A stretch of DNA of 64,000 bases. It comes from Pedococcus aerophilus. Its GTDB lineage: Bacteria > Actinomycetota > Actinomycetes > Actinomycetales > Dermatophilaceae. Below the pieces are notes generated by a model. That model saw nothing but the letters and a program-made list of their open reading frames with translations, did no database searches and was not told where the DNA came from. Positions 133-55,970 of the stretch are shown in pieces (within the stretch, counting starts at the first letter, position 1; every line of letters begins with the position of its first letter). The translations under genes and the position numbers were made by a program. The stretch is taken from the NCBI RefSeq assembly GCF_039532215.1, contig NZ_BAAARN010000001.1, forward strand, positions 559,036-623,035, read 5' to 3'.

Positions 133-160
133 CTCGATCGGTGGAGGCACGTGACCGGCT

Positions 161-175
161 GGCGGCGGAAAGACG
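161..175 (+). repeat. Recurring intergenic motif, copy 1
   Basis: GGCGGCGGAAAGACG. Identical over 15 bp to the copy at 51782-51796 and one substitution class away (W position and first base) from the copies at 52823 and 55764. It lies in a non-coding gap between a possible gene end at 132 and the gene starting at 224. Confidence 0.6.
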
Positions 176-223
176 CTGCTAAATCGGTGGGTCTCCCACG
201 CCTGACCCTGACATCCTGCTGCG

Positions 224-648: not shown

Positions 649-1149
649 GTGGCATGGGTGGGTGAACAGATACTCGATTCAGGAACTCGACAGGCATATG
701 CCCTCGTCGAGGCCGCGGCCGACTGGTCTCCGTGGTCCCCGTTCCTGACGGGGCAGACCTCTGCGCCGCGGCTGCCCGGCGTGTACCTCTTCCGCGAGCC
801 TGGATCCCAGGTGATTCGCTACGCAGGCATGGCAGGAGAGCGCGCCGGAAGCGGACGCCCCATGGGACTACACGGTCGGCTTTCTGTCTACCGAACTGGT
901 AAGGGCGCCGTGAGCGGCTTCGGTGAGGCCGCACTTGATCGGGCACTCGCCGATCCGCATTGGATCGGGGTCCAGCTTGACCGCCTCGAAAATGAGGGAC
1001 CAAGGCGGGCCAAGGAATGGGCGGCGGACGCTATCTTGCGGCTCTCTCCTGAGGTCAGCTGGACCATCGTCACCGATGGCCCCAGCGCAAAAGTCCTCGA
1101 AGGCGAGCTTGTCCCACTCCTGCGACCACACGGACTCTGGAACCGGTGA
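649..1149 (+). CDS. GIY-YIG-like nuclease family protein
   Basis: A 166-residue protein from a GTG start. The middle carries LPGVYLFREPGSQVIRYAGMAGER, which has the layout of a GIY-YIG core: a GVY first strand, then Y-A-G-M in place of the YIG triplet. This is followed by LHGRLSVY with a conserved arginine. The C-terminus LEGELVPLLRPHGLWNR holds the glutamate and the P-x-x-N-like ending often seen in GIY-YIG nucleases. If active it would be a metal-dependent endonuclease, but substrate and role are unknown. It is a single-gene unit with motif-like sequences on both sides (572 and 1153). The assignment rests on motif reading only. Confidence 0.6.
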   Translation: MAWVGEQILDSGTRQAYALVEAAADWSPWSPFLTGQTSAPRLPGVYLFREPGSQVIRYAGMAGERAGSGRPMGLHGRLSVYRTGKGAVSGFGEAALDRALADPHWIGVQLDRLENEGPRRAKEWAADAILRLSPEVSWTIVTDGPSAKVLEGELVPLLRPHGLWNR

Positions 1150-1152
1150 CTT

Positions 1153-1167
1153 CGCGGCGGAAGGCAG
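1153..1167 (+). repeat. Recurring intergenic motif, copy 3 (weak)
   Basis: CGCGGCGGAAGGCAG, 4 bp after the stop of the GIY-YIG-like gene. Only the first ten bases match well, and a similar ACGGCGGAAGGCG string occurs inside a core gene near 41350, so this copy is uncertain on its own. Confidence 0.3.
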
Positions 1168-1284
1168 CAGGTCTCGGCGAACTCCAGCGTGGGCTGTGCG
1201 CACGGGCCAGCACGGACGGGCGCCAGCCCCGCGCCTCTCCCCTTCCCCATGCGAAGGTTCACTGCGGCCGATGGCTGCGCGAAT

Positions 1285-9512: not shown

Positions 9513-9532
9513 TCAAGCAGTTAGTCAAGCAT
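9509..9532 (+). repeat. Direct repeats at the integrase stop, possible arm-type sites
   Basis: Two adjacent 12-bp units, TTAGTCAAGCAG and TTAGTCAAGCAT. They include the integrase stop codon and lie between the gene and the tRNA. Short direct repeats here are typical of integrase arm-binding sites in attP regions; this is inference from position. Confidence 0.5.
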
Positions 9533-9565
9533 CGCCCTTGAGGGCCGATTCGAAGCCCTACGAAC

Positions 9566-9606
9566 AACAGCCCCTGACCGGCGTTTCCGCAGGTCAGGGG
9601 CTGTTT
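9566..9606. terminator. Strong hairpin between integrase and tRNA-Val
   Basis: A 13-bp stem (ACAGCCCCTGACC at 9567-9579 pairing with GGTCAGGGGCTGT at 9592-9604) with a 12-nt loop, flanked by short T and A runs. It could end both the rightward integrase transcript and the leftward tRNA transcript. Confidence 0.85.
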
Positions 9607-9611
9607 CGTTC

Positions 9612-9686
9612 TGGTGGGCGATACTGGGTTTGAACCAGTGACCTCTTCCGTGTCAAGGAAGCGCGCTACCACTGCGCCAATCGCCC
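9612..9686 (-). tRNA. tRNA-Val (GAC)
   Basis: Complete cloverleaf: acceptor GGGCGAT/ATCGCCC, anticodon loop TTGACAC giving anticodon GAC, T arm with GGTTCAAACC. The 3' CCA is encoded. The 3' end faces the integrase, making this the probable attachment-site gene. Confidence 0.95.
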
Positions 9687-9718
9687 GAGGTGGAGCATTT
9701 CGGGTTCGTACGTAGTCG

Positions 9719-9789
9719 AGGTGGAGACGGGATTTGAACCCGTGTACGCGGCTTTGCAGGCCGCTGCCTCGCCTCTCGGCCACTCCACC
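9719..9789 (-). tRNA. tRNA-Cys (GCA)
   Basis: Cloverleaf with acceptor GGTGGAG/CTCCACC, anticodon loop CTGCAAA giving GCA, and T arm GGGTTCAAATCCC. CCA is not encoded. It is the middle gene of the Gly-Cys-Val cluster. Confidence 0.95.
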
Positions 9790-9811
9790 GTGAAGGCGGT
9801 CAAACCCTCCG

Positions 9812-9884
9812 AGCGGATGACCGGGCTCGAACCGGCGACCTCAACCTTGGCAAGGTTGCGCTCTACCAACTGAGCTACATCCGC
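9812..9884 (-). tRNA. tRNA-Gly (GCC)
   Basis: Cloverleaf with acceptor GCGGATG/CATCCGC, anticodon loop TTGCCAA giving GCC, and T arm CCGGTTCGAGCCCGG. First gene of the leftward tRNA cluster. Confidence 0.95.
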
Positions 9885-9921
9885 ATTACACGCGCGTTGG
9901 TGACGAACGAGAAGCTTTTGG

Positions 9922-11184: not shown

Positions 11185-11215
11185 CCGACCACGGTATCCC
11201 GCATACTCTGCCGTC

Positions 11216-12862: not shown

Positions 12863-12926
12863 CCGAGGCGCGCCACCCACGAACGGATGATCGACGCGGA
12901 CGCACGGCGGCCGCATACTCGGCAGC

Positions 12927-13283
12927 ATGAGAGGTCAACCCGGACGGGGAGCCTTGATCGGGCTCTTCCTCGGTGCCGTGACTGCGGCGCTCGTCGTCCT
13001 GCTGCCTGCAGCGATGAAGGGCCTCAACTACATGGACGTCCTCGACCCGCTGCTCTACATCGGCGCCCCGATCGTCGTGCTCTCAGCGTGCGGCGGTGCC
13101 ATGCTCGGCGCGCCGGCGCCGCGGCCACAGCACGAGGTGTGGATCCGCCCCATCCGCAAACCCGGCCCTGCCGCCATGGTGGCCGGCGGCTTCGTGCTGC
13201 TGACGATCTGCGCGATCGCCGTCTGGGTCCTGCTCTGGGGGTTCGGCCACGCCCCGGCGCCGCCAGGGCTGCGCCAGCTCTGA
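12927..13283 (+). CDS. Small membrane protein
   Basis: A 118-residue protein with three hydrophobic segments: GALIGLFLGAVTAALVVLLPAAM, LLYIGAPIVVLSACGGAML and AAMVAGGFVLLTICAIAVWVLLWGF. No family is recognised. Codon use matches its neighbours. It converges on the VOC gene across a tandem repeat. Confidence 0.6.
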   Translation: MRGQPGRGALIGLFLGAVTAALVVLLPAAMKGLNYMDVLDPLLYIGAPIVVLSACGGAMLGAPAPRPQHEVWIRPIRKPGPAAMVAGGFVLLTICAIAVWVLLWGFGHAPAPPGLRQL

Positions 13284-13285
13284 AC

Positions 13286-13345
13286 CGTTGGTCCTGGATC
13301 CGTTGGTCCTGGATCCGTTGGTCCTGGATCCGCTAGTCCTGGATC
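13286..13345. repeat. Four tandem 15-bp units at the end of the VOC gene
   Basis: Three exact copies of CGTTGGTCCTGGATC and a fourth, CGCTAGTCCTGGATC. The fourth holds the last codons and stop of the leftward VOC gene, so the extra copies look like tandem duplications of that gene's 3' end. They lie just past its stop. Confidence 0.9.
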
Positions 13346-13707
13346 ACCGAGAGGACGTTGCCGGCCGGGTCGGTGAACCACGCGATCAGCGGGCCGCCAC
13401 CGCGGAAGATCCCGTTGTCGTCGGTCGCCATCGGCGTCCCCTCGTACTTCTCGAACTGCACGCCGGCGTCGGTGAGAGCGCCGACGGCCGCCTCGATGTC
13501 GGCGACGGGGAAGTTCAGGACGGTGAAGCCTGCGGGCACGTGGTCGGGCTTCGGGTAGATGGTCGCGCGGTGTCCACCGCCGAGGTGCAGCGTGAGGATG
13601 CCCATCTGCTCGCTCACCTCGAGACCGAGGACGCCGCCGTAGAAGGCACGCGCCGCCTCGATGTCGTCGGCCGAGAATCCGCTGAATGCCTTCGAGTCGC
13701 TGAGCAT
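13333..13707 (-). CDS. VOC (glyoxalase/bleomycin-resistance fold) protein
   Basis: A 124-residue single VOC domain with paired beta-alpha-beta-beta-beta motifs: [27 protein letters not shown] at the N-terminus and [25 protein letters not shown] in the middle, ending [20 protein letters not shown]. The final acidic DPAGN stretch is typical of the metal-binding or substrate side. Function cannot be given from sequence; such proteins include dioxygenases, isomerases and antibiotic-binding proteins. Its 3' end forms the last unit of the tandem repeat. It stands apart from the PPK2 gene upstream. Confidence 0.85.
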
Positions 13708-13798
13708 GCCCAGCTCCTTTCGCTCAGTGGCAGCAGCGGGTTGCTACCGCCTCCACACATACCGACCCGCCGCCGCCTCCCAACTCATCGCTGCGGTG

Positions 13799-14782
13799 TC
13801 AGGTGATGCGCAACCGCTCCTGCTCGGCCTCGACGTCGTAGTCGACGGCGGGCCACTGCGGATCCATCGCCTCGAGGTGCTCCAGCACCAGGCTCTGCAC
13901 GGCGAGCCGGGCGTACCACTTCCGGTCGGCGGGGACGACGTGCCACGGGGCGGCGTCGGTCGACGTGCGGTCGAGGACGGCCTGGTAGGCCTCCTGGTAG
14001 TGCGGCCACTCGAGGCGCTCGTCGACGTCGCCGGGGTTGTACTTCCACTGCTTGTCGGGTCGCTCGAGGCGCTCGGTCAGCCGCGCCTTCTGCTCGTCCG
14101 AGGAGATGTGCAGCATCACCTTGACGATCGTGGTCCCCTCGGCGACGGCCTTCTCCTCGAAGGCGTTGATCTGCGCGTACCGGCGCGACCACGTCGCCTT
14201 GGGCACGAGGTCGTGGACGCGGACGATGAGGACGTCCTCGTAGTGCGAGCGGTCGAAGACCCCGATCTGACCGGGGTTCGGCAACGCGTTGCGGATGCGC
14301 CAGAGGAACGGGTGGCGACGCTCCTCCAGCGACGGTGCCTTGAACGCTGTGTAGCGCACGCCCTGTGGGTCCATGTGGCCGACGACGTGGCGCATGATGC
14401 CGCCCTTGCCGGAGGTGTCCATGCCCTGCACGACGAGCAGCAGGGACCGGGTGCCGTTCATCTTGGCCTCGGCGTACAGCCGTTCCTGGAACTCGCCGAT
14501 CTCCCCCGCCCTCAGGTCGAGGGCCTGCTTCCCGGCGACCTTGTCGCCGTCGAAGGCAGGAGTCGACCGCGGGTCGCACTCGGCGAGGACGAAGCCCTCA
14601 CGGGCCCTGAGAGCCTCACTGAACGACACCGGGGACAGGGGCGCGACCTCGGCCGGCTCAGCCTTCGGGTTCTTGGTGGCCCTGACGGCCTTCTTCGCCG
14701 AGACCTCCTTGGCCAGGGCGGCCTTGAGCTCGGCCTTCGTGGACTTGCCGGACTTGGTGGACTTCTTGTCCTTCTTCGCCAT
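13799..14782 (-). CDS. Polyphosphate kinase 2 family protein
   Basis: A 327-residue PPK2, moving phosphate between polyphosphate and nucleotides. The first 45 residues are a lysine-rich low-complexity tail (MAKKDKKSTKSGKSTKAELK) that is unusual in length. The catalytic domain has Walker A VVQGMDTSGKGGIM, the MDPQGVRYTAFKAPSLEERRHPFLWRI block, and FDRSHYEDVLIVRVH, the Walker B-like RSxYED. A polyphosphate:ADP or AMP phosphotransferase of the single-domain type is likely; which class cannot be decided by eye. It is followed upstream by the ZapE gene with a 12-bp gap, so the two are probably co-transcribed. Confidence 0.9.
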   Translation of the reverse strand: MAKKDKKSTKSGKSTKAELKAALAKEVSAKKAVRATKNPKAEPAEVAPLSPVSFSEALRAREGFVLAECDPRSTPAFDGDKVAGKQALDLRAGEIGEFQERLYAEAKMNGTRSLLLVVQGMDTSGKGGIMRHVVGHMDPQGVRYTAFKAPSLEERRHPFLWRIRNALPNPGQIGVFDRSHYEDVLIVRVHDLVPKATWSRRYAQINAFEEKAVAEGTTIVKVMLHISSDEQKARLTERLERPDKQWKYNPGDVDERLEWPHYQEAYQAVLDRTSTDAAPWHVVPADRKWYARLAVQSLVLEHLEAMDPQWPAVDYDVEAEQERLRIT

Positions 14783-14794
14783 CTCGGCATCCTG

Positions 14795-15802
14795 TCACCG
14801 GTCGTCACCGCGCGCGAGGGCTGTGAGTCGGGAGATGGCCCGGTAGTACTTCTTCCGGTACCCGCCGGCGAGCATCTCCTCGGAGAACACCTGGCCCAGT
14901 GGTTGGCCGCTGGCGAACACCGGGATGTCCGCGTCGTACAGGCGGTCGGCGAGGACGACGAGGCGCAGGGCCACCGCCTGGTCAGTGACGGGCCGCACGT
15001 GGGTCCAGGCGATCGCGCTGACCCCGTCGAGAAGCGTGCGGTAGCGACTCGGGTGGACCGTCGACAGGTGCCGCGTCACGTCGACGAAGTGGTCGAGGAC
15101 GGCACCCTCGCGCTGACCGGCTGCGCGGACCTCGTCCTCGGTCAACGGCGGTGGGCTGTCGACCGTGTCGCGGTGCCGGTAGTCGGGTCCGTCCACCGTG
15201 AGGACGTCGAACCGTGAGGCCAGGGCCTGGATCTCGCGCAGGAAGTCCTCCGCCGCGAACCGTCCCTCCCCCAGCGCGTCGGGCAGGGTGTTGCTCGTGG
15301 CAGCCAGCGACACCCCTGCCTCGGTCAGCCGGGCGAGCAGCGTGGCCATGAGGACGGTGTCACCGGGGTCGTCGAGCTCGAACTCGTCGATGCAGACGAG
15401 GGTGTGACCGCTGAGCGCCTCGACCGTCTGCGCGAATCCCAGTGCCCCGACGAGGTTCGTGTACTCAACGAAGGTGCCGAAGGACTTGGGCCCGTCCGCC
15501 TCGTGCCACAGGCTCGCCAGCAGGTGCGTCTTGCCGACACCGAACCCGCCGTCGAGGTAGATCCCGCGCCCCGCCTGCGGACGCTTCTTGCGCCGCCCGA
15601 AGAGGCCGGTGCCGCCGCGCGCGGCACCCAGCGACGCGGCATACGCCTCGAGCCGCTCGACGGCCGCGGACTGGCTGGGCTCGGCGGGGTCGGGGCGGTA
15701 GGTCGAGAACCGTTCGGCGTCGAACCTCGGCGGGGGCACGAGGTCGCGCACCAACCGTTCGCGGTCGAGCTTCGGTGAGCGGTCGGTCAACGAGGAGGGC
15801 AC
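14795..15802 (-). CDS. zapE: ZapE/AFG1-family ATPase
   Basis: A 335-residue AAA-type ATPase. It has the P-loop GGFGVGKTHLLASLWHEA, a Walker B LVCIDEFELDDPGDT with the ZapE-typical CIDEF, and a sensor stretch AATSNTLPDALGEGRF. The C-terminal FASGQPLGQVFSEEMLAGGYRKKYYRAISRLTALAR is shared by the AFG1/ZapE family. In E. coli ZapE modulates Z-ring constriction; mitochondrial Afg1 acts in protein quality control. Lies 12 bp upstream of the PPK2 gene on the same strand and divergent from the reductase at 15835. Confidence 0.9.
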   Translation of the reverse strand: MPSSLTDRSPKLDRERLVRDLVPPPRFDAERFSTYRPDPAEPSQSAAVERLEAYAASLGAARGGTGLFGRRKKRPQAGRGIYLDGGFGVGKTHLLASLWHEADGPKSFGTFVEYTNLVGALGFAQTVEALSGHTLVCIDEFELDDPGDTVLMATLLARLTEAGVSLAATSNTLPDALGEGRFAAEDFLREIQALASRFDVLTVDGPDYRHRDTVDSPPPLTEDEVRAAGQREGAVLDHFVDVTRHLSTVHPSRYRTLLDGVSAIAWTHVRPVTDQAVALRLVVLADRLYDADIPVFASGQPLGQVFSEEMLAGGYRKKYYRAISRLTALARGDDR

Positions 15803-15834
15803 GCAGGAAGCCTAGGTGAGGCAGACTTCGCGCC

Positions 15835-16596
15835 ATGCGCCTGCTGCTCAACGAGACCGGTCTGCCCTCGTCGTCCTCGTCGTCCTCGTCGTCCTCGGCG
15901 GACGCCGGCTCCAGCGACCTCGATGAGGCCGCCCTGCGTGAGGTGTATGCCGTGCCGGCCGACCGAGCGTGGCTGCGCGTCAACTTCGTGGCTTCCCTCG
16001 ACGGTGCCGTCACCGGTGCCGACGGCCGCTCCGGGAGCATCAACACGCCTGCGGACTTCCGCGTCTTCTCGGTGCTGCGTCAGCTCGCGGACGTCGTGGT
16101 CGTCGGCGCGGGAACCGTTCGGGCAGAGGGGTATCCAGCGCTCCAAGACGAGGACCCGGACGCGCCGGTCCTGGCCGTGGTCAGCAACCGGGGAGAGCTG
16201 CCGCCGACCGTGGCCGCCATGACGTCTCCTCAGGGCGCAGCGCTGATGATCACCTGCGAGCACGCGGCTGCGGAGAAGGTGGAGGCTGCCAAGGGGGTCC
16301 TCGGTGAGAGCAACGTGATCGTCACCGGCGGTGAACGCGTCGACCTCGTGGCGGCTCGTCAGGCGCTGGAGGAAAAGGGATTTCGGAGCATCCTGTCCGA
16401 GGGTGGTCCGTCGCTGTTCGCCACCATGCTCGAGGCCGGAGTCGTTGACGAGGTCGACCTCACCTGGGCACCCACCCTCGTCGGCGGCGACCACGGCCGG
16501 ATCGCCGGAGGGCCGGACCTCGACGTGGCCCTGACGCCCATGCTTCTCCTGGAGGAGGACGGGACGGTCCTCGGTCGATGGCGCGTGGGCCGCTAG
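15835..16596 (+). CDS. RibD C-terminal (pyrimidine/dihydrofolate reductase-like) protein
   Basis: A 253-residue NADPH-dependent reductase-like protein related to the C-terminal half of RibD. Family marks are WLRVNFVASLDGAVTG, ADVVVVGAGTVRAEGY, VSNRGELPPT, ILSEGGPSLFATML and the closing VDEVDLTWAPTLVGGDHGRI. No deaminase domain is fused. The real riboflavin gene may be elsewhere, and this subfamily's substrate is unknown. Residues 12-21 are ten serines encoded by TCG/TCC repeats, an insertion relative to a usual N-terminus and a likely slippage tract. Divergent from zapE. Confidence 0.85.
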   Translation: MRLLLNETGLPSSSSSSSSSSADAGSSDLDEAALREVYAVPADRAWLRVNFVASLDGAVTGADGRSGSINTPADFRVFSVLRQLADVVVVGAGTVRAEGYPALQDEDPDAPVLAVVSNRGELPPTVAAMTSPQGAALMITCEHAAAEKVEAAKGVLGESNVIVTGGERVDLVAARQALEEKGFRSILSEGGPSLFATMLEAGVVDEVDLTWAPTLVGGDHGRIAGGPDLDVALTPMLLLEEDGTVLGRWRVGR

Positions 16597-16688
16597 ATCT
16601 CTGATCGCGGCTGTCCGACGGTGCCCAATTCTGTTCTGCTGTGGGCGAACTCGCGTACTTCAATTGTGGACTTCTCTTCCCGATGAGT

Positions 16689-16704
16689 TCGAACACCTGT
16701 ACGA
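16689..16704 (+). promoter_or_regulatory. Probable LexA (SOS) box before a DUF222/HNH gene
   Basis: TCGAACACCTGTACGA matches the actinobacterial LexA consensus TCGAAC-N4-GTTCGA with one mismatch. It overlaps a -10-like TACGAT and ends 7 bp before the ATG at 16712. In Mycobacterium tuberculosis several 13E12-repeat genes, which encode this same protein family, belong to the LexA regulon. Confidence 0.75.
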
Positions 16705-16711
16705 TTGAGGT

Positions 16712-18244
16712 ATGTCGACCGCTCCCCTCAGCACCGTCCCCGACGCACTCGCGCCGGGCAGCTGGGGTGTGCGGAACCGGGCCCTGTGGGACCGGACCGC
16801 CGCCGTTGCAGGACAGTTGAACCGGGTGCAGGCGGAGCTGGTCGACATCATCGACGAGGTCATGACCGGCGGTCACTGGGGTGAGGGCGGGTTCAAGTCC
16901 CCCGAGCACTACCTGGTGGTCCGGGCCGGGTTGGCCCCTGCCCACGCCGCCGACATCGTCGCTGTGGCTCGGCGCCGGTCGGAGCTGACCGACGCCGGGA
17001 CTGCACTGTCTGCCGGTGAGCTGTCCCTGGACCAGGTCGCGGTCCTGGCCCGCAATGTGCCCACGAGTCACCAGAAGTCGCTGACCCGATTCGCCCGCGA
17101 AGCAACCGTGCCCCAGCTACGTCGTGCGGTCCGGATGCACGCCTTCCCTGCCGATCCAGTACCCGAACCGGGCGACGACGGACCAGCAGCGACCATCACC
17201 GCGCCAGACGCCCGCGCCCTGGTGAGGGAAGAGCACGACGCCGCGAAGGCCTCGGTCGCGGAGCAGCGGGCCTGTGCGCGGCCCGAGCTGACCATGACGT
17301 ACGACGCTGATGGTCGGTTCCAGCTGCGGTACTCCGCGCCCGCGACCATCGGCGCGCTGGTCGAACAGGCCGTGAAGGAGGCCAAGGACGCGTTGTTCAC
17401 CCTCCGCCGCCGTGAGACCGACAACAGCACCAGCGACTCTCCGACCGACAGGGACCAGCTCCTTGACCAGCATGCTGGGCTGCCGACCTATGCCGACGCG
17501 CTCGAGGAGATGGCCAACCGGTCCCTGGCCTCAATGACGTCGACCTCACGGGCGGCGCACTACCGGGTGTACCTGCACCTGGACACCAATGGTGCCTGGG
17601 TCACCGGCGGGCACGCGATCCCCAAGCGGCTGCTCGGGCGCTTCGTGTCGGATGGCGTGGTCCAACCCGTCTGGGAAACCCAAGGGCGACCGGTCTCGGT
17701 CGGGCGGTCGATGCGGATCCTGCCCGAACGCTCCCGACGCCTGGTCCTCGACCGCGACCGAGGCTGCCGGTTCCCCGGCTGCCCCACCACCAACACCGGC
17801 TTCGTCGAGATCCACCACCTGCACCCCTGGGCCGACGGCGGCACCACCGACACGACCAACCAGATCTCGTTGTGCACCAGGCACCACGACGGCATCGACC
17901 GTGGCGACTACCAGATCACCGGCGACCCCGACCGACCCGACGGACTGACCGTGGTCAACCGGTACGGGCTACCCATCCGCCCACCCCGACCCGACGAGAC
18001 AGCACCACCACCCGGCGGCGACCCGACCGTCCCGGCCGGCACCTACCGACCACCCACCGGCGGCAACGCCAGCTGGAACGACATCGAGCTCCCCTCCGAC
18101 CTCGAGATCGACCACCCCGAACTCGCCCGCACCAGACCACCCGGACAACCCACCCGCACACCCCGCACCCCAACCAGGCGCAGGACCACATCCTCCGGAG
18201 CCGGACTCGTCATCATCTCCGAAGGCCTCATTCCCTGGGAATGA
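16712..18244 (+). CDS. DUF222 / HNH endonuclease (13E12-type) protein
   Basis: 510 residues. The N-terminal two thirds is a helical DUF222 domain (VQAELVDIIDEVMTGGHW, SELTDAGTALSAGELSLDQVAVLARNVP). The C-terminal HNH domain is RDRGCRFPGCPTTNTGFVEIHHLHPWADGGTTDTTNQISLCTRHH, with zinc cysteines and the H-H-L-x-P-W-x-x-G-G-x-T signature. It is followed by a proline- and threonine-rich tail. Such proteins are abundant in actinobacteria and their role is unresolved. The upstream LexA box suggests DNA-damage induction. A second family member is at 61935. Confidence 0.9.
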   Translation: MSTAPLSTVPDALAPGSWGVRNRALWDRTAAVAGQLNRVQAELVDIIDEVMTGGHWGEGGFKSPEHYLVVRAGLAPAHAADIVAVARRRSELTDAGTALSAGELSLDQVAVLARNVPTSHQKSLTRFAREATVPQLRRAVRMHAFPADPVPEPGDDGPAATITAPDARALVREEHDAAKASVAEQRACARPELTMTYDADGRFQLRYSAPATIGALVEQAVKEAKDALFTLRRRETDNSTSDSPTDRDQLLDQHAGLPTYADALEEMANRSLASMTSTSRAAHYRVYLHLDTNGAWVTGGHAIPKRLLGRFVSDGVVQPVWETQGRPVSVGRSMRILPERSRRLVLDRDRGCRFPGCPTTNTGFVEIHHLHPWADGGTTDTTNQISLCTRHHDGIDRGDYQITGDPDRPDGLTVVNRYGLPIRPPRPDETAPPPGGDPTVPAGTYRPPTGGNASWNDIELPSDLEIDHPELARTRPPGQPTRTPRTPTRRRTTSSGAGLVIISEGLIPWE

Positions 18245-18327
18245 CGACTCAGCCTCGACGCCCCCACGCGATAGTTCGCGGAAGCCCCACCGCCCAGGCA
18301 GATCCACGCCGTGGCCGGCTGAACTCG

Positions 18328-19545
18328 CTAGCTGCTGACGAAGTCGGCGACCGAACGCTCCCACCGGTCCGGGTCGACGTTCCACTCCTTCGTGTGGCGG
18401 GAGGTGTCCCAGTGCTCCATCGTCACGAGATCCGGCCGGGCGGCAGCCAGCTGCTGCGAGGGCCCGACGGGCACGAACTCGTCGTCGACCGAGTGGATGA
18501 TCAGCGTCCGGTGCCGCAGCTCGGAGGCCTTGGCCACCCAGTTCGTCTGCGCCACGTCGACAGGATCGTGGACCCCCGCCAGCCGCCGGGTGAGTCGCCG
18601 GCCCATGATGAACCGACTCAGGCCACCGATCGGGTCGGGGATGCCGTGCAGCCGACCGTGGTGGATCAGGACGTCGGTCCAGTCGATCACCGGGGCATCC
18701 AGCACCACGTGGCTGACGTGGTCGGCCAGCCACGAGCGGCTCAGGGTCTGGAGCACGATGGCCCCGCCCATCGACCACCCGACGAGGAGCAGCTCGCGCG
18801 CTCCCTGCTGCACCGCGAACAGTGCTGCGTCCTCGATGTCACGCCACTCCGACAGGCCCAGGTTGTACCGCCCATCCGCACCGCGTCGCGCTCCGAGGTC
18901 GTTGCGGTAGGACGGGATGATGATGTTGATCCCACTGTTGTGCAACGGTTTCGCAGCACGCAGACCCTCGTCACGACGAGCACCACGACCGTGCACGAGC
19001 ACCGCCCAGCGGGTCGACGGCTTCGGGGCACGGATCACCCACGCCGGCATCGTCCCGAGCTCGGTGAGGACGTCGACGTACTCCGTGCGCATCCCGAGCG
19101 CGCGGTCCGGCGGGCCCGCGTAGAAGTACTGGTCCCACCGGCCGTACCCCGGCGCCAGGTGACCCGAGTCGACCCCCAGCACCTCGCGACGAACCCGGCC
19201 ACGCTCCTCGTCGACGTCGAGGATGTCCCCGAGCCGCACATGCCCGGACGACTTGTCCAGCCACAGGCCGTACCGTCCCGGCACCACGGTCTCCGGCGTC
19301 ACGTCGAGGGTCACCGAGGTCTCGTCGACGGCAAGGATCTGCGTGTCGTCGGGACGTTGACGATCAGGGGTCAGGGCCCGGCGGGCGAGGTAGGCGGCCA
19401 GCCCGACGGAGGAGACGGCAGCCGTGGCCGCGAGGGAACCAGCGGTCACCCCGGCCACGGTGGCGGCGGTGCGCAGCGGCCGCCGGTCGGGCGCCAGCGG
19501 CGGGACCTTCGGGCGCGACACGATCGACGGGCTCGACGGCCTCAC
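18328..19545 (-). CDS. Alpha/beta hydrolase with N-terminal membrane segment
   Basis: 405 residues from a GTG that overlaps the LigD stop (GTGA), so the two are coupled. An N-terminal hydrophobic stretch (AATVAGVTAGSLAATAAVSSVGLAAYL) suggests membrane anchoring or export. The hydrolase fold shows RWAVLVHGRGARRDEGL, the oxyanion region, and the nucleophile elbow LLVGWSMGGAIV, with Ser in G-W-S-M-G. An acid at IIHSVDDEFVP and a final histidine at EHWDTSRHTKEW complete a plausible triad. It resembles lysophospholipase- or dipeptidyl-peptidase-like hydrolases. The substrate is unknown, and the link to DNA repair is positional only. Confidence 0.85.
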   Translation of the reverse strand: MRPSSPSIVSRPKVPPLAPDRRPLRTAATVAGVTAGSLAATAAVSSVGLAAYLARRALTPDRQRPDDTQILAVDETSVTLDVTPETVVPGRYGLWLDKSSGHVRLGDILDVDEERGRVRREVLGVDSGHLAPGYGRWDQYFYAGPPDRALGMRTEYVDVLTELGTMPAWVIRAPKPSTRWAVLVHGRGARRDEGLRAAKPLHNSGINIIIPSYRNDLGARRGADGRYNLGLSEWRDIEDAALFAVQQGARELLLVGWSMGGAIVLQTLSRSWLADHVSHVVLDAPVIDWTDVLIHHGRLHGIPDPIGGLSRFIMGRRLTRRLAGVHDPVDVAQTNWVAKASELRHRTLIIHSVDDEFVPVGPSQQLAAARPDLVTMEHWDTSRHTKEWNVDPDRWERSVADFVSS

Positions 19546-21701
19546 CGCTTCACCTGCCCCAGCACGTCGGCGAGGTCGAAGCTCACGGGTTCCTCCAGCT
19601 GCTCGTAGGTGCACGACCGGGGATCCCGGTCCTCGCGCCATCGCACGAACTGCGCGGTGTGGCGGAAGCGGACTCCCTCCATGTGGTCGTACTTCACCTC
19701 GACGACGCGCTCGGGCCGCAGCGGCGTGAACGACAGGTCCTTGCCCGCGTTCCACCGGCTCGTGGCGCCGCTGGTGGGCGTCCGCGACCCCGCCTCCTGC
19801 TCGGCCCAGGCCCACGGGTGGTCCTCGAACGTCGTCACGAGGGGCTGCAGCTCCTCGAACAGCTCCTTGCGTCGCGCCATCGGGAAGGCGCCGATCACCC
19901 CGACGCTCATCAGCGACCCGTCGTCGTTGTAGAGCCCGAGCATCAGCGAACCGACGAGGTCATCCCCGCTCTTGTGGGTGCGGTACCCCGCGACCACGCA
20001 GTCGGCGGTCCGGACGTGCTTGATCTTGAGCATCGTCCGCTTGTCCTGCTCGTACGTCCCGGACAGCGGCTTGGCGATCACCCCGTCCAGCCCGGCCCCC
20101 TCGAACTGCTCGAACCACTCCTGCGCCTCCTGCGGGTCACGGGTCGCCCGGGTCAGGTGGATCGGCGCCTCCACCGAGGCGAAAGCGTTCTCCAGCAAGG
20201 ACCGTCGCTCGGAGAACGGCCGATCCGTGAGGTCCTCCCCCGCCAGCGACAGCAGGTCGAACGCCACGAACTGCGCCGGCGTCTCTGCCGCCAGCTTCTT
20301 CACCCGGCTTGCCGCAGGGTGGATCCGCTGCTGGAGCGCCTCGAAGTCCAGCCGGTCACCCGACGACCCCACGACGACGATCTCGCCGTCGACGACCGCC
20401 TGGTCCGGAAAGTTCGCCAGCACCGCCTCGACCACCTCGGGGAAGTAGCGCGTCATCGGCTTCTCGTTGCGGCTGCCGATCTCGACGGAGTCACCGGACC
20501 GGAAGATGATCGAGCGGAACCCGTCCCACTTCGGCTCGAAGAGGTAGTCGCCCGTCGGGATCCCCTTGACCGGCTTGGCCAGCATGGGCGCCACGGGTGG
20601 CGGCACCGGACCCCACTGGGCGCGCAGCTCGGCGTCCCGATCGGCCTTCGGGGTCATGTACTCGTCGTCGGTCTTGTCGGCCCGGCGCTTGCTCGGCTGG
20701 ACCCGCGGCGGCTCCCCCGGCATCTTCGGATAGTCCGGGGGGAAGTTCAGCTCACCCAGTCCACGCTCGTTGATGTCCCTGTCCCACAACGCGATCGCGC
20801 CGGTGACGTCACCCACCGCCTCGTCCATCCCGGCCCACGCATCACCGGACGCGGCGATGATCCCCGGCACGGTGCGGAGCGTGAACTCCCCCGGGTCGAC
20901 GCCCACGAGGTGGTCCCAGCCGAGCGGCATACTCACCGGCGCACCGGGCAGCGGGCGCGGGCTGTAGGCGGAGGCGATGGTGCGGTCACGACAGGCCTGG
21001 TTGAAGTCGACGAAGACGCGCTCGCCCCGCTCCTCCTTCCACCAGGAGGCGGTGACGAGGTCGGGCAGGCGTCGCTCGAGCTCACGCGCGATCCCGATCA
21101 CCCCGTGCCGCACGTCGAGGAACTCGTGGGTCGGCGCGATGCGGACGAACACGTGCACGCCTCGGTTGCCCGAGGTCTTGACCCACCCGGTGAGCCCGAT
21201 CTCGGTGAGCAGCTCGCGCAGTGCGACCGCGGCCTCGACCGCGTCGGCGAAGGTGCGCCCCGGCTGAGGATCGAGGTCGATGCGCAGCTCGTCGGGCTTG
21301 TCGACGTCCGCCGTCCGCACCGGCCACGGGTGGAACGTCACCGTGTTCATCTGCATCGCCCACACGACCGCGGCCGGCTCGTCGACGACGACCTGGAGGT
21401 GCCTGCGCCCCGAGGGGTAGGTGCACATCACCGGGGTGATGAAGTCGGGCATCCCCTTGGGCGGGTTCTTGGTCCAGAACTCCTCCCCGTCGATCCCCTC
21501 GGGGAACCGCTGCAGGGTCACCGGCCGGTGCCCGAGGGCGTTCATGAACCCCGTGCGGACATCGATGGCGTACTGCGCCAGGTCGAGCTTGGTGATGCCC
21601 TCACCCGGCCAGATCAACCGGTCCGGGCTCGAGATCCGCACCTCCCGCGCGTCGCCCCACGGGCCCTCGGGGACCTCCACCGTCGTCGCCGCTGCCGCCA
21701 T
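19542..21701 (-). CDS. ligD: LigD: polymerase and ATP-dependent DNA ligase domains
   Basis: A 719-residue NHEJ enzyme. The N-terminal primase-polymerase (LigD_N) domain (about 1-300) includes LIWPGEGITKLDLAQYAIDV, the D-x-D pair in ELRIDLDPQPG, and SGNRGVHVFVRI. The ligase domain (about 370-719) starts with PMLAKPVKGIPTGDYLFEPKWDGFRSIIFR; the lysine in EPKWDGFR is the adenylated residue. DGEIVV and GLDGVIAKPLSGTYEQDKRTMLKIKH are further nucleotidyltransferase motifs. The 3'-phosphoesterase domain found in many LigD proteins is absent. No Ku gene is in the window. It is coupled to the hydrolase gene downstream. Confidence 0.93.
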   Translation of the reverse strand: MAAAATTVEVPEGPWGDAREVRISSPDRLIWPGEGITKLDLAQYAIDVRTGFMNALGHRPVTLQRFPEGIDGEEFWTKNPPKGMPDFITPVMCTYPSGRRHLQVVVDEPAAVVWAMQMNTVTFHPWPVRTADVDKPDELRIDLDPQPGRTFADAVEAAVALRELLTEIGLTGWVKTSGNRGVHVFVRIAPTHEFLDVRHGVIGIARELERRLPDLVTASWWKEERGERVFVDFNQACRDRTIASAYSPRPLPGAPVSMPLGWDHLVGVDPGEFTLRTVPGIIAASGDAWAGMDEAVGDVTGAIALWDRDINERGLGELNFPPDYPKMPGEPPRVQPSKRRADKTDDEYMTPKADRDAELRAQWGPVPPPVAPMLAKPVKGIPTGDYLFEPKWDGFRSIIFRSGDSVEIGSRNEKPMTRYFPEVVEAVLANFPDQAVVDGEIVVVGSSGDRLDFEALQQRIHPAASRVKKLAAETPAQFVAFDLLSLAGEDLTDRPFSERRSLLENAFASVEAPIHLTRATRDPQEAQEWFEQFEGAGLDGVIAKPLSGTYEQDKRTMLKIKHVRTADCVVAGYRTHKSGDDLVGSLMLGLYNDDGSLMSVGVIGAFPMARRKELFEELQPLVTTFEDHPWAWAEQEAGSRTPTSGATSRWNAGKDLSFTPLRPERVVEVKYDHMEGVRFRHTAQFVRWREDRDPRSCTYEQLEEPVSFDLADVLGQVKR

Positions 21702-51604: not shown

Positions 51605-52069
51605 GGCTGACTCCTTGTCAAAAACTGCGGTCGGTGTTACCCCAAGTGTCCCCGACGCAGCACGACTCGCGTCACGGCCTCAGGAGATGGTGACAACCGG
51701 GGCAAGTCCCCCACGGCGTCATCGACGGCATCCCGACTCGCACGGACAACGGCATTATCCAACGTCTGCGGTAGCCCGACAGGCGGCGGAAAGACGCGGC
51801 CCTGCGGCGGTCCGCTTTTTTGGGGTTGTGATTCCCTTGGCCTCACCAACAGATGCGCTACTGGGGGATGATCCGGGAGAAGCGGAACATCAGCTCCGGT
51901 CGTTTGAGGTTGCCAGTGTCGAATACGAAACACCTATCCCGCAAGGAGGCGCACGCCGCGACGCTTGGCGCCAATGGGCCGGGGGATGCGTCGGGTGAAC
52001 CGAACGCGCCTCGACCACCGCCCGGCTACAGTGCAAGATGGATTGTCGACAAGGCAGCAGGGAGTCAAT
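51605..52069. other. Non-coding left edge of the accessory island
   Basis: No gene recognised. Holds the motif copy at 51782-51796, with CGTCT about 22 bp before it that can pair with its AGACG end. A short GC hairpin (GCGG-CGGT-CCGC) then runs into six T, a possible terminator at about 51804-51821. Base composition becomes more AT-rich and irregular than in the flanking core genes. Confidence 0.5.
51782..51796 (+). repeat. Recurring intergenic motif, copy 4
   Basis: GGCGGCGGAAAGACG, identical to copy 1 at 161-175, 51.6 kb away. It begins the array of accessory genes. Confidence 0.7.
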
Positions 52070-52711
52070 GTGACCGTGGCGGAGAGCCCAGTGGATGCCA
52101 CCAGCTGGTGGACTACCTGGGGAGCCACATGGGTCCAGACACTAGGCGCCCTCATCGCCGCCCTCATCGCGGTCGCATGGACCGTGCACGTCCAGCGAAA
52201 GGAGGGCTTCAAGCAGCGTCAAATCACAGCCGCGTCGGACGTGATCATCAACTCTTTCCACGTGGTGCGCTACTGCCACCGCAACGCCGACCTAATGCGC
52301 GACTATGACTCTAAGTTCGACACCAGCCTACGAGCGTGGAGCATCGACCTACTTCACCAGGACGGAAGGCGCATCCTGCCTCAGCTTCGAAAGGAAGGCC
52401 GGGCGTTCGTGCAGGAAGCGCTGCAATGGAGAGTGCGACTGCAGAAGGATGCCTTGAGAATCGCGGCAGACATGGAGGACGGACGCGGTGACCTTCACCT
52501 GATACACCGAGGCCCTGAACTGGACGAGCTGCGGAACCATGCGCGAACGTTCGCCAACTTTGTGACGGCATGGTCGGCCGAGCCGTGGTGGTGGCGTCGG
52601 AGGCGATTGGTCGTAGCGATGACGAAGGCGCGGACTGGCTGGTGGGGCAACGACGACCTCGGAACTTTCCTGAATCACGACTGGCCTACCGGCGGTAAGC
52701 CGGGGGCCTAG
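52070..52711 (+). CDS. Accessory membrane-anchored protein, unrecognised
   Basis: 213 residues from a GTG with GGGAG 5 nt upstream. A membrane segment near the N-terminus (TWVQTLGALIAALIAVAWTVHV) is followed by a cytoplasmic helical domain rich in Arg, Trp and His (KEGFKQRQITAASDVIINSFHVVRYCHRN, FVQEALQWRVRLQKDALRIAADMED, AWSAEPWWWRRRRLVVAMTKAR). No enzyme motif is seen. A single-gene unit between motif copies 4 and 5. Codons are less GC-biased than the core genes, suggesting transfer. A membrane effector or sensor of a defence system is possible but not shown. Confidence 0.6.
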   Translation: MTVAESPVDATSWWTTWGATWVQTLGALIAALIAVAWTVHVQRKEGFKQRQITAASDVIINSFHVVRYCHRNADLMRDYDSKFDTSLRAWSIDLLHQDGRRILPQLRKEGRAFVQEALQWRVRLQKDALRIAADMEDGRGDLHLIHRGPELDELRNHARTFANFVTAWSAEPWWWRRRRLVVAMTKARTGWWGNDDLGTFLNHDWPTGGKPGA

Positions 52712-53161
52712 AGACTTCAATGCCGGCCGGCATCGAAGCCTGCGAGCCTCTTAACGCGCGGTGCCAGCGGGCCAAGGGTCTGAAACAACTCGCCCAATCG
52801 GACACTGCAACAGCGTCCAGCTCGCGGCGGTAAGACGTGCCGCAAGACCTGCGTCCGAGCCGACGTTCCGTCAGGGCGTGGCCTGGCCCTAATAGGACCG
52901 GCGGCTGCGCCAGCGCCCAAGAACTGAGCATCAAGTTAGAGCCGGGTGTCGTCACGCTGCGAGGAGCATTAAGAACTGAGCCAGTTACTCGCCGGTTCTG
53001 CTGCCTTTGCCGAAAGCGAGACAGTCCCACGTTGGCAGCGACCGGCGTCGCCAAGACGTGAAACCATCGGCGACCGCGGGCATAACCCGAGATGACCGCT
53101 TCGTCACCTAGGGTTTGCCCCAACGTCGCACCGAACGCGGCACTGTTGAAGGGTGGGGGAC
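52712..53161. other. Non-coding gap with motif copy 5
   Basis: 450 bp without a convincing gene. Motif copy 5 lies 112 bp after the preceding stop. The rest has no repeat or hairpin I can support strongly. Confidence 0.5.
52823..52837 (+). repeat. Recurring intergenic motif, copy 5
   Basis: CGCGGCGGTAAGACG, identical to copy 8 at 55764-55778. CGTC 9 bp before it can pair with its GACG end, and its GCGGC can pair with GCCGC just after it. Confidence 0.7.
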
Positions 53162-53620
53162 GTGCAAAGCCGACGGGGTGTTTTCGCGGTGCTGCTAGTG
53201 GGGCTGATGGGTGCATGCGGAGAAGGCGCGGAAGATCAGGACGTGAACGCAGGTAGCCAAGACAAGTCGCCGACGGTGAGCCGGTCGACTGGAGTCGACA
53301 CGGCGGCGTGGATCCGAGAGCTAGCTATTGCCGGCGTCACTGACCTAGATATGTCCAAGGTTGAGGCGCTCACAAGGGACATGTGCGATGACAGCCAAGA
53401 GGAGCTGACGACGTTCGCCAGCCTGCAGAAGGACGCAGGAGAACCAATGGATGTGCTGCGGATCAACTTCCGCTTTGTCTGTCCCGACCAGGTGGACAAG
53501 CTGCAGGCCGCTGAAGCCCAACTCGAGAACGCAACAGACTCCGTGCAGGAGGCGTGTGACATGGAACCAACTGCCCGCACACAGGACCAACAGCAGCTCG
53601 CTGAACTCATGGGTTGTTAG
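53162..53620 (+). CDS. Accessory small lipoprotein, DUF732-like
   Basis: 152 residues. The start is probably the GTG at 53162, after GGTGGGGG; an in-frame GTG at 53153 is also possible. Lipoprotein signal QSRRGVFAVLLVGLMGAC with lipobox M-G-A-C. The exported part has AAWIRELAIAGVTDLDMSKVEALTRDMCDD, resembling the DUF732 pattern of secreted actinobacterial proteins (a hydrophobic helix, a gap, then A/L-x(4)-C), and other cysteines (C in RFVC, EACD, final GC). Function unknown. Single-gene unit between motif copies 5 and 6. Confidence 0.6.
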   Translation: MQSRRGVFAVLLVGLMGACGEGAEDQDVNAGSQDKSPTVSRSTGVDTAAWIRELAIAGVTDLDMSKVEALTRDMCDDSQEELTTFASLQKDAGEPMDVLRINFRFVCPDQVDKLQAAEAQLENATDSVQEACDMEPTARTQDQQQLAELMGC

Positions 53621-54137
53621 GGACTTAAAGAATTGCTAACGCCCTACAGCACCTCGGCGGCAGCCGAATAGCAGATCCCGAACCTGCGACCCACCCAGTC
53701 CCGTCGACTTACTACCTCGGCAAGGCACACGACACCAACCGCGGCGATGCTGCTGCTCTTCGATCGAATGCCGTCAGGGACTCGACCTCAGGCTCGGACA
53801 CGCGGCCATCCCGCCGCCCTCCGCGTCATGCGTCAAGGACGCCCAGCGCTACGACAGACTCCTGAGAAGGACCTTTCGACGTCAGGGTCGACCGCGTTGA
53901 CGACGGCGTCACAACTGGGCGTCCAGGATCCGAGCCCATGAGTCGACCCGCGACAAAATGTGTAACGGCGCGAAAGAGCGAAGGCAGCGGTAAGACGCAT
54001 CGTGGCATATCGCGGTCATCGAGGCCCTGGGCTGCGGCAGACTATGACCGAGCCCTTCGAGTCAATTGTCGTCAATCGCCAGGCGGCCACGCGTCGACTC
54101 GGCCACGCTCGTTTCGACGGGATCTTGGGAGGTCGGA
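53621..54137. other. Non-coding gap with motif copy 6
   Basis: 517 bp without a supported gene. Motif copy 6 is at 53983-53997. No recognisable RNA or transposon. A broken gene too degenerate to identify cannot be excluded. Confidence 0.5.
53983..53997 (+). repeat. Recurring intergenic motif, copy 6
   Basis: GGCAGCGGTAAGACG, matching the GCGGTAAGACG core of copies 5 and 8. Confidence 0.6.
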
Positions 54138-54518
54138 ATGTCGGACGAGAGTGCAAGGCGGCTCCCCAAGCAGGGGAAGACAGCTGAAACGGACGTGTGG
54201 AAGTTGTTGGAGCAGGCCGAAGCCGCGATCGGCGCAAGGGACGAGCCGACTGCCGCCTACCTAGTGCTCGTGATTCGCCGTCTACTGCCCAGTCACTCCG
54301 CGGCCACGCGAAACGACATTGTCGACCGACTGGAGAACTCGGGTCTTGCGGCGCTGGATCGTCGTGCGACGGAGGCGATGGATCGCACCCTCCAAGTGGC
54401 AGCCAAGAGTGCGCCCAGCCCCTATGCGCGGACCCGACGCTATGTCCCTTGGTGGCTGTCCAATCGTCGGTCCTGGGAGCCACCCGCGGGCTCGCCCGGT
54501 CTAGGCAAGCGCCGTTGA
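54138..54518 (+). CDS. Accessory small protein, unrecognised
   Basis: 126 residues. The ATG at 54138 is preceded by GGGAGG with 5 nt spacing. The first 80 residues are helical and contain a repeat-like segment (ETDVWKLLEQAEAAIGARDEPTAAYLVLVIRRLLPSHSAATRNDIVDRLENSGLAALDRRATEAMDRTLQVA). The tail is basic and Trp/Pro-rich. No family or catalytic motif is recognised. Single-gene unit between motif copies 6 and 7. Confidence 0.55.
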   Translation: MSDESARRLPKQGKTAETDVWKLLEQAEAAIGARDEPTAAYLVLVIRRLLPSHSAATRNDIVDRLENSGLAALDRRATEAMDRTLQVAAKSAPSPYARTRRYVPWWLSNRRSWEPPAGSPGLGKRR

Positions 54519-54584
54519 CGGAAGGTTCAGCAAACCTGCGCCGCCAGGCTCATCTCGGAGGAACCCCTGCGTCGGCGAAATACA

Positions 54585-54599
54585 CGCGGCGATATGACG
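54585..54599 (+). repeat. Recurring intergenic motif, copy 7 (two mismatches)
   Basis: CGCGGCGATATGACG, differing from copy 5 at two positions. GCGTC 13 bp before it can pair with its GACGC end. It separates the small gene from the abiF unit. Confidence 0.5.
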
Positions 54600-54674
54600 C
54601 GCGCCCGGCGGGCGCGTGTGGACGCGACTTGTACGAGCCAGCGGCCATGCCCTGCGACTCGTGCTACTGTCTCC

Positions 54675-54724
54675 TTACTACATCCCCCACGCCTCTCCAC
54701 GATGCGCACTTGGGGGATTTTTTT
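54675..54724 (+). ncRNA. Small RNA/terminator upstream of abiF (abiF RNA-like)
   Basis: A hairpin with an 8-bp stem (ATCCCCCA at 54682-54689 pairing with TGGGGGAT at 54711-54718), an inner CGC/GCG helix, and seven T directly after: a textbook intrinsic terminator, rare in this genome. It lies 23 bp before the abi GTG and follows a TACTGT -10-like box at 54665-54670. A conserved structured RNA upstream of abiF genes (abiF RNA motif) has been described, from memory. A terminated transcript of about 50 nt fits an RNA antitoxin or attenuator. Exact ends are estimates. Confidence 0.65.
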
Positions 54725-54747
54725 GCCCGGGAGTGGAGGAGCCCTTG

Positions 54748-55734
54748 GTGCCTCAGTCGATGCGGCCACGCGGCTCGCTCAGCTTCAACAAGCCGCCGCT
54801 GACCCTCGACCAGCTGGCGGACCGTCTCATTGGACGCGGGCTCGAGGTGCCCGACCGCGAACGCGCCGATCGGTATCTCCGCCACATCGGCTACTACCGA
54901 CTCTCCCCTTATGCCATCCCATTCCAGCAGGGCGGCCCGGACCACGCGCTGCGAGAGGGCACCTCATTCGACGACCTGCTCGACCTCTACGTCTTCGACC
55001 GCGCGCTCCGCTCGATCGTCATGGACGCCATCGAGCGTGCGGAGGTTGCCGTTCGCGCCGCGCTGACGGACCACATGTCGACGACGTACGACGACCCGTT
55101 TTGGTACGTGGCGTCCACGCACTTCCGCGACTCCGGCAAGCACGCCCGGTTTGTGAGGATCGTTAGGGACACGTGCGAGGCGCGGCTGCGCGGCACCCCC
55201 GACGCCGGCGACGACGGGCTGGTTCACCGCTCGGCACTCGAGCACTATCTGACTACCTACGGGTCCCCCGAACTTCCTCCGTCGTGGCTCATGGGCGAAA
55301 TGCTGACCATCGGTCAGCTCGCCAGCATGTATCGAAACCTGAAGCAGCGCGCCGACAGGACCGCGGTCGCCAGTAGTGTCGGACTGAATGCTCCCGTCCT
55401 CGAGTCGTGGCTGACTACATATGTCCGCGTGCGCAATATATGCGCCCACCATGGCCGGCTGTGGAATGTCGGTCTGGGCGTATACCCGGCGATCCCTACC
55501 TCGCCGACGGTGCCGTGGCTCGCTGGTACCGGCTCGCTGCCGGACCGGTCGAAAAAGCGGCTCTACCCCGTCCTCATTTCGCTCCAGTCTGTCCTCTACA
55601 CCGTCTCGCCGCGCAGCAGCTGGGCCCGCCGCCTTCACGACCTACTGGACTCCAGGCCCTCGATGAACCTACGCGGCATGGGCATCCCCGAAGAGTGGGT
55701 CGAAGACCAGTTCTGGAGCAAGCTTCTCCCGTAA
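54748..55734 (+). CDS. AbiF/AbiD-family (Abi_2) abortive-infection HEPN protein
   Basis: 328 residues from a GTG with GGAGGAG 6 nt upstream. Abi_2 hallmarks: an N-terminal FNKPPLTLDQLADRLIGRGL, LRHIGYYRLSPYAIPFQ, YVFDRALRSIVMDAIERAEVAVRAAL, and the HEPN RNase signature YVRVRNICAHHGRLWN (R229-N-x3-H-H235). Family members act in abortive phage infection, probably by cutting RNA. AbiF proteins with an RNA partner have been proposed as relatives of the Cas13 ancestor. The upstream small RNA at 54675-54724 supports a toxin with RNA antitoxin or attenuation control. Single-gene unit between motif copies 7 and 8. Confidence 0.88.
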   Translation: MPQSMRPRGSLSFNKPPLTLDQLADRLIGRGLEVPDRERADRYLRHIGYYRLSPYAIPFQQGGPDHALREGTSFDDLLDLYVFDRALRSIVMDAIERAEVAVRAALTDHMSTTYDDPFWYVASTHFRDSGKHARFVRIVRDTCEARLRGTPDAGDDGLVHRSALEHYLTTYGSPELPPSWLMGEMLTIGQLASMYRNLKQRADRTAVASSVGLNAPVLESWLTTYVRVRNICAHHGRLWNVGLGVYPAIPTSPTVPWLAGTGSLPDRSKKRLYPVLISLQSVLYTVSPRSSWARRLHDLLDSRPSMNLRGMGIPEEWVEDQFWSKLLP

Positions 55735-55970
55735 AAACGCTCTCCGGCGCCCCTACTCCGGCACGCGGCGGTAAGACGGCAGCTCCTTTAAGGCAGCTCA
55801 AATGCTCGATGACTATCGCGGCGAAGTGTGGAACGTCTTCTCACTGGAATGAGAGGACATACGGGTGTCCCGCTGCCGTTGAATGCGCGCGCCACGAGAG
55901 TCAGTGGCTGCGCGAGCAGTAGGAGGGTGAAGTGATAGCCCCCGAAGGCTGACGCGATCTCGACGTCCGG
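55735..55970. other. Non-coding right edge of the island
   Basis: Motif copy 8 lies 29 bp after the abi stop. The remainder to 55970 has no supported gene; base composition drifts back to core-like. A weak CGCGGCGAAG match near 55818 was not counted. Confidence 0.5.
55764..55778 (+). repeat. Recurring intergenic motif, copy 8
   Basis: CGCGGCGGTAAGACG, identical to copy 5. The preceding CGCTCTCCGGCG at about 55738 is an imperfect reverse complement of it, so the site could fold into a hairpin. Confidence 0.7.

Follow-up and report, generated by a model that had tools for sequence, protein, structure and literature searches.

What does a short DNA motif do when it recurs, always in the same direction, between genes that have nothing else in common? 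The question is raised by a 64,000-nucleotide stretch of Pedococcus aerophilus DNA (NZ_BAAARN010000001.1, positions 559,036-623,035 of the forward strand), the whole of which we call the window and whose own numbering is used for positions below. An earlier note on this DNA had read five copies of a 15-bp motif, at 51782, 52823, 53983, 54585 and 55764, as the joints of a mobile array with one gene per site that is not an integron and is perhaps served in trans. All five copies were recovered on one strand with 0-2 mismatches, and they lie in the gaps around four genes, these genes being chosen on the same strand as the motifs. Comparison with other genomes supports the idea of a mobile array through the clustering of the sites, their single direction, homology breaks at the site and a linked recombinase. 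In our reading, the copies are most probably recombination sites of a dedicated gene-cassette array system that is linked to a Xer-type recombinase and resembles an integron without being one.

According to this reading, a cassette would open with a right arm (GWADGACGCAC), as a rule contain a single gene, and finish with a left arm, the 6-bp core GCGGCG closing it. Divided in this way, the window array has n cassettes and n+1 sites, scored here in bits with a profile derived from other genomes:

51774..51800, plus strand: cassette site 1, 29.2 bits, core GCGGCG at 51783-51788
51783..52823, plus strand: cassette 1, gene at about 52070-52711 (start codon by reading), hydrophobic N-terminal stretch by reading, no Pfam family
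52815..52841, plus strand: cassette site 2, 23.8 bits, core at 52824-52829
52824..53983, plus strand: cassette 2, gene at 53153-53620 (155 amino acids), lipoprotein-like with a lipobox by reading, Pfam match below threshold only
53975..54001, plus strand: cassette site 3, 18.6 bits, core at 53984-53989 with the variant GCAGCG
53984..54585, plus strand: cassette 3, gene at about 54138-54518 (126 amino acids, start codon by reading), no Pfam family
54577..54603, plus strand: cassette site 4, 23.1 bits, core at 54586-54591
54586..55764, plus strand: cassette 4, Abi_2-type gene at about 54748-55734 (start codon by reading)
54683..54718, plus strand: abiF RNA in cassette 4, 5' of the Abi gene (RF03085, 41.3 bits, gathering score 37)
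55756..55782, plus strand: cassette site 5, the array end, 16.8 bits, core at 55765-55770

The plain 15-mer is a poor guide to such sites. With three mismatches allowed it was found 17 times in the window against 13.2 expected, and as this is not significant, a profile was used instead. Scanning the genome with two mismatches, as the earlier note had proposed, did show an excess (46 occurrences against 31 of the reversed pattern), but the plain motif makes weak evidence; with one mismatch the genome counts were nine and one. The main profile, 27 bp long and trained on 91 sites from other genomes, reaches at least 14 bits, the window cut-off, at seven places in the window, namely the five reported sites, a site at 162 and one stray place at about 42592 on the minus strand. 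Since 30 first-order Markov sequences contained 0.33 such places on average and never more than 2, the profile result is decisive for the reality of the window sites. In the P. aerophilus genome the best motif copies are clustered (window 161-1153 and 51782-55764, contig C2 659-4708, and contig C1 2192398 to about 2197033 on the minus strand), and congeners contain further clusters of the same kind.

Alignment of 103 sites shows a weak left arm, whose commonest bases are C at -6, C at -3, A/T at -2 and C at -1, followed by the core GCGGCG, conserved to 96-100% per base, and a strong right arm composed of G (82/103), A/T, two variable positions, GACGC, A and C. Over 163 gaps, the median distance between neighbouring sites is 1.2 kb, with quartiles at 0.74 and 2.46 kb. 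The hairpin that the earlier note suspected between the motif and an upstream CGTC dissolved under this scrutiny: CGTC occurs at -25 to -9 in 13/103 sites and in 11-19/103 at seven shifted offsets, which is chance. Nor does the complement of the motif stand out near 72 sites, the best match upstream being 7.83 of 13 positions in both real and shuffled flanks, and downstream 8.08 against 7.93. Folding around the sites (mean z -0.30 to -0.66) indicates slight extra structure and not a paired site. Together these features suggest a core site of the simple tyrosine-recombinase kind, strong in one arm and weak in the other, and not an attC site.

A candidate enzyme came from a PF00589 search of eight genomes (G numbers denote genomes, L numbers loci). 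Among the many matches, 307-codon frames lie in or adjoin arrays in G006, G007 (two frames) and G010, and a broken relative lies inside an array of G028. The earlier note's statement that no recombinase accompanies the array holds for the genome of P. aerophilus, but in relatives a tyrosine recombinase sits beside such arrays. The protein, about 304 amino acids long and encoded in these relatives on the strand opposite to the array, contains a Phage_integrase domain (PF00589, E 6e-21); its closest NCBIfam match is XerC (98.8 bits against a cut-off of 335), it falls below every equivalog cut-off, and its best sequence relative in the PDB is XerD (1a0p, E 1.3e-13). Residues R156, K183, H247, R250, H273 and Y282, which we take to be the catalytic residues R-K-H-R-H-Y, are conserved in 10/10 aligned copies. 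In a phylogenetic tree, all 28 proteins labelled array-linked fall within one clade of 31 (support 100/99), in which the recombinases of L128, L130 and L131, loci free of arrays, are nested; the clade is separate from the conserved Xer-like proteins that these genomes and their relatives encode, to which its members are about 26-30% identical. In our reading, the enzyme of the arrays would be a dedicated XerC/D-like tyrosine recombinase.

A protein-alignment scan of named genomes yielded 12 loci of this recombinase, hosted by Phycicoccus, Pedococcus, Nocardioides terrigena, Flexivirga endophytica, Occultella aeris, an Intrasporangiaceae bacterium (URHB0013) and a Micrococcales metagenome-assembled genome. 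None was detected among the 72,556 plasmid records of PLSDB at E 1e-40, or in any of 19 candidate stretches of viral contigs. In L177-L180 and L181-L184 several copies share one array; some of them are broken or truncated, and most are preceded by their own site. The recombinase also forms a conserved divergent unit with a NERD-type gene in L078, L118, L119 and L135, flanked on both sides by sites in L078 and L118.

The sites obey a strict strand rule. In the 41 stretches with at least two sites, of 49 scanned, 205/206 sites lie on the majority strand; only the stray place in the window does not. Some of these stretches adjoin each other, and as many were selected for motif clusters, the independent test of the rule lies in loci fetched by the recombinase. 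In the 12 loci fetched by the recombinase alone, scanned with a profile trained only on the 62 sites of L068-L087, 52/52 sites are opposite in strand to the recombinase, and nine of the 12 loci carry sites. Without L125-L127, which overlap the training set, the count is 31/31 in nine loci. The same scan found one site in eight random 20-kb regions and one in 29 loci of other PF00589 proteins. A second survey gave 15/15 opposite sites of at least 12 bits in 12 loci whose recombinases are at least 62% identical, and two sites, one opposite and one not, in eight loci of sister proteins that are 42-47% identical.

A site also stands in front of the recombinase gene itself. When the region 95-140 bp before the start was searched in 27 copies with a readable N-terminus (24 loci given), 21 had a site of at least 10 bits at 95-121 bp, 16 of these reaching at least 14 bits, whereas only 4/3,416 control stretches had a site of at least 10 bits. 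Mean ungapped identity between copies peaks at 0.94 in the core and is 0.62 in the right arm, compared with 0.34 over the 25 bases that precede the core and 0.28-0.29 beyond these parts. Among close copies the homology extends over the leader, and when it gets as far as the site it stops 2-27 bp after the core begins; 16 of 269 between-genome recombinase alignments end within -6 to +20 of the site in both partners, and many others stop short. This position would make the site an entry site, the counterpart of attI.

Between genomes, homology shifts at the core. The clearest case is a 2.4-kb cassette carrying the recombinase and the NERD gene, 91% identical between Phycicoccus Root101 (L078, 16897-19286) and Phycicoccus Soil748 (L118, 9268-11656). 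At its 5' end the two sequences are unlike up to GCGGCG and alike after it, and at its 3' end they are alike up to GCGGCG and unlike soon after. The same kind of end recurs in three places for another cassette (B), a cassette of about 520 bp from the contig C1 array of P. aerophilus lies between two sites in both G366 and G411 as well, and 253 bp of window cassette 2 match a cassette of another species (G010) at 68.8%. Fourteen between-genome homologous segments were kept, 12 of which run in array orientation; after they were merged into 20 pieces (8,766 bp), not one internal site was counted against 4.2 expected, a number as low being reached in 28 of 5,000 shifts. Aligning strains, as the earlier note had suggested, was feasible between species only, and it produced breaks at the site but no empty site at the window locus. 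In G006 and G007, cassette A is 97.4% and cassette B 92.8% identical, and G007 shares the recombinase cassette with G010 at 91.0%. At two conserved Xer-like loci, these genome pairs are 72-86% identical, a difference that points to recent exchange.

Finally, recombinase and motif tend to occur together. Among 396 genomes of the order, the recombinase (E 1e-60) is present in 13, two of which (G146 and G375) carry a sister protein of 45-48% identity, and the exact motif in 54. The motif occurs in 10 of the 13 genomes with the recombinase and in 44/383 without it (p 2e-7); at least three exact motifs occur in 8/13 and 5/383, respectively (p 1e-10). In a survey of 394 genomes of the class, 19 encode the protein, and the exact motif was found in 11/12 genomes with a close copy, 2/7 with a sister copy and 73/382 without a close copy (p 2e-7).

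The site itself, the strand rule, the site before the recombinase, the breakpoints at the core and the co-occurrence can all be read directly from the compared sequences, and they suggest how the arrays may work. The 304-amino-acid recombinase would catalyse strand exchange at the GCGGCG core, inserting circular cassettes at the entry site and excising or shuffling cassettes between sites; the direction of insertion, like the catalysis and the circular intermediates, is presumed. Since no recombinase was found in the genome of P. aerophilus, its array may be an orphan, as are the clusters of attC sites lacking integron-integrases (CALINs), or may be served in trans, or else the recombinase gene may lie in an assembly gap; contig C2 begins inside an array, so the gene could have been lost in such a gap.

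What the cassettes carry is varied. Forty-three Pfam families were matched from 111 open reading frames (ORFs) on the strand of the sites and 39 from 106 ORFs on the opposite strand, nearly all of them single among the matches listed (the first 25 per strand), although one protein may match several families. ORF length gave no information on orientation (43 same, 35 opposite) and codon usage called few intervals (16, of which 6 same and 10 opposite), so the Pfam matches, present on both strands, were taken to mean that cassette genes point both ways. Some of the genes look like defence genes: PADLOC matched 14 families in the same-strand set, including AbiD, and a TIR protein occurs in the opposite-strand set. 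The AbiD match, to one member of the cassette protein set (1.8e-58), was taken as the Abi gene of window cassette 4, which itself matches PF07751 (E 2.7e-49, frame 54616-55734).

A second cluster, absent from the earlier note, lies at the beginning of the window, comprising one strong site and two weak ones:

153..179, plus strand: second-cluster site, core at 162, 27.1 bits
564..590, plus strand: second-cluster weak site, core at 573, 10.8 bits, directly 3' of the stop codon of the frame 224-571
1145..1171, plus strand: second-cluster weak site, core at 1154, 10.1 bits, where homology to another copy of the neighbouring element begins

Here the P. aerophilus genome shares a stretch with Phycicoccus Root101 (L079 and L077), one Root101 copy being 99.8% identical and another 91%. 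Compared with the 91% copy, the shared stretch begins at the weak site at window 1154, and position 6459 of L079 aligns with the window from 1156 onward.

Several observations weigh against a cassette system of this kind, and the excision and integration of cassettes are themselves something that we infer. No recombinase was found in the P. aerophilus genome at E 1e-60, and no empty site at the window locus, where none of the relatives examined has both flanks joined; homology of the left flank stops at 51657, and the gene of the right flank, at about 55971, is conserved elsewhere. Three of the 12 recombinase loci (L128, L130 and L131) are devoid of any site. Six of the 27 copies have no site in front, four further ones (L078, L118, L119 and L135) have the NERD-type gene between the recombinase and the first site, which brings the overall tally to 21/31, and for four of the 21 entry sites (L086, L133, L134 and L136) the sites or their neighbours were in the training set of the profile. 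The exact motif in 44/383 recombinase-free genomes is likewise unfavourable, part of it being due to chance according to a reversed-pattern control on the same listings. Two homologous segments out of 14 have the orientation opposite to that of the arrays. Cassettes A and B, which are among the best shared, end on one or both sides at a site resembling a second type described below and not at GCGGCG. To these may be added the weak conservation of the left arm, the occurrence of cassette genes in both orientations, and the folding of windows that straddle a site, with mean z of -0.61 and -0.66 (standard error 0.12) relative to shuffled sequence.

The alternative that survives best, unlikely as we consider it, is that the recombinase is a passenger. 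The sites would then be landing pads of another enzyme, for example the host XerC/D, and the 304-amino-acid unit would just insert there, as might be expected from the arrays that lack such a recombinase, the one in the window included, and from those that hold several copies. It accounts poorly for one site at a similar distance and orientation before the recombinase in many lineages, for the co-occurrence of recombinase and motif, and for the pairing of a sister recombinase with a different site. The last point comes from L196, in which a sister recombinase (44% identical) lies beside ten copies of another site, with GCGGCATG, on the opposite strand (2254-9794, plus). As the type-2 profile was made from nine of these ten, the L196 count is not independent; L262 and the control are. 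In L262, four sites of the GCGGCATG type (8789-19566, minus) are all opposite to the recombinase and one lies about 110 bp in front of it, and none was found in 160 kb of control.

The type-2 pattern is not uniform. There was no match to the profile in L194, L257, L260, L261 or L263, no clear motif of their own appeared in L194 and L257-L261, and a single match on each strand in L258 and in L259, the latter of the same sister clade, weighs against the pattern. Type-2 sites also occur inside type-1 arrays, six of them in L072 (12660-16122, minus) opposite to the type-1 sites, and elsewhere in smaller numbers and either orientation. A further feature of L262 is a set of 18 repeat units, exactly 34 bp apart and matching part of the recombinase leader, which lies some 5 kb ahead of the recombinase start when read in array orientation.

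Less probable still is a true integron, with IntI and attC, or a CALIN remnant whose sites have diverged very far. The layout is indeed the same, with an integrase on the opposite strand, a site in front of it and a cassette array. Integrons have the core GTTRRRY at their cassette junctions, their attC sites fold by pairing of the R'' and R' arms, and their cassette genes mostly share one orientation. Here, GTTRRRY fits 7/103 right arms and occurs anywhere within 40 bp in 10/103 sites. Against an integron stand the recombinase, which scores 41.9 bits with TIGR02249 (cut-off 265, residues 226-284 only) and 19.7 with PRK15417 (cut-off 435) and about 99 bits with XerC, and the motif, which has no complementary partner beyond chance. 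In Actinobacteria, the IntegronFinder 2.0 survey reports one In0, a few CALINs and not a single complete integron (PMC9024848). Least credible of all is a regulatory or structural element without recombination, such as a terminator, a regulator site or a repeat resembling repetitive extragenic palindromes, which would suit five copies confined to intergenic gaps and the slightly better folding of straddling windows than of shuffled ones, but not the change of between-genome homology at the core, array genes in both directions with sites in one, the lack of a stem partner beyond chance or the link to a recombinase.

A dedicated cassette system linked to a Xer-type recombinase remains our preferred reading, and with somewhat less assurance we think it likely that Actinomycetes possess their own equivalent of the integron, evolved independently from Xer-type recombinases, with sites specific to each subfamily (GCGGCG and GCGGCATG), an entry site, and chromosomal arrays that include defence genes and are exchanged between species. 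Integrons are the textbook case of single-gene capture, and a large survey, that of IntegronFinder 2.0, lists no complete one in Actinobacteria (PMC9024848). If a separate system derived from Xer enzymes does exist, the design of cassette capture would have evolved more than once, and there would be an explanation for the way these actinobacteria gather accessory genes, among them defence genes like the Abi gene of the window, which comes with an abiF RNA. The system also provides a recombinase and a site that can be tested as a pair, with a sister recombinase and its other site for comparison. No description of such a cassette system turned up in the open-access literature, preprints and most subscription journals being outside the search, and the system is likely, though not certain, to be new to the literature.

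Among known systems, integrons and sedentary chromosomal integrons are the most similar in layout, sharing the tyrosine integrase on the opposite strand, the entry site, sites pointing the same way and, in the window, n+1 sites. The entry site next to a divergent integrase has an analogue in the relatives and not in the P. aerophilus genome, and arrays without an integrase, that of the window included, recall CALINs. In contrast to integrons, the recombinase here is XerC/D-like and far below the IntI cut-offs, the site is short and linear with a near-invariant GCGGCG and no paired partner, as opposed to attC, GTTRRRY is confined to few right arms, and cassette genes lie in both orientations. 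The pdif (dif) modules of Acinetobacter plasmids also place discrete genes between sites made of an arm, a 6-bp spacer and an arm, with Xer-type recombination; these sites are reported to be 28 bp long, to occur in both C/D and D/C order and to have varied spacers (PMC13141974), and the enzymes studied for them are XerC and XerD of A. baumannii (PMC7399989). Our sites, in contrast, are direct repeats with a near-invariant 6-bp core, and their recombinase belongs to a separate array-linked clade that was not found in PLSDB at the threshold given above. Tested for defining features of integrons and of pdif modules, the arrays differ from both. As to the enzyme, XerC, XerD and XerA are its best relatives in NCBIfam and by PDB sequence, yet it lies below their equivalog cut-offs and holds a place of its own in the tree.

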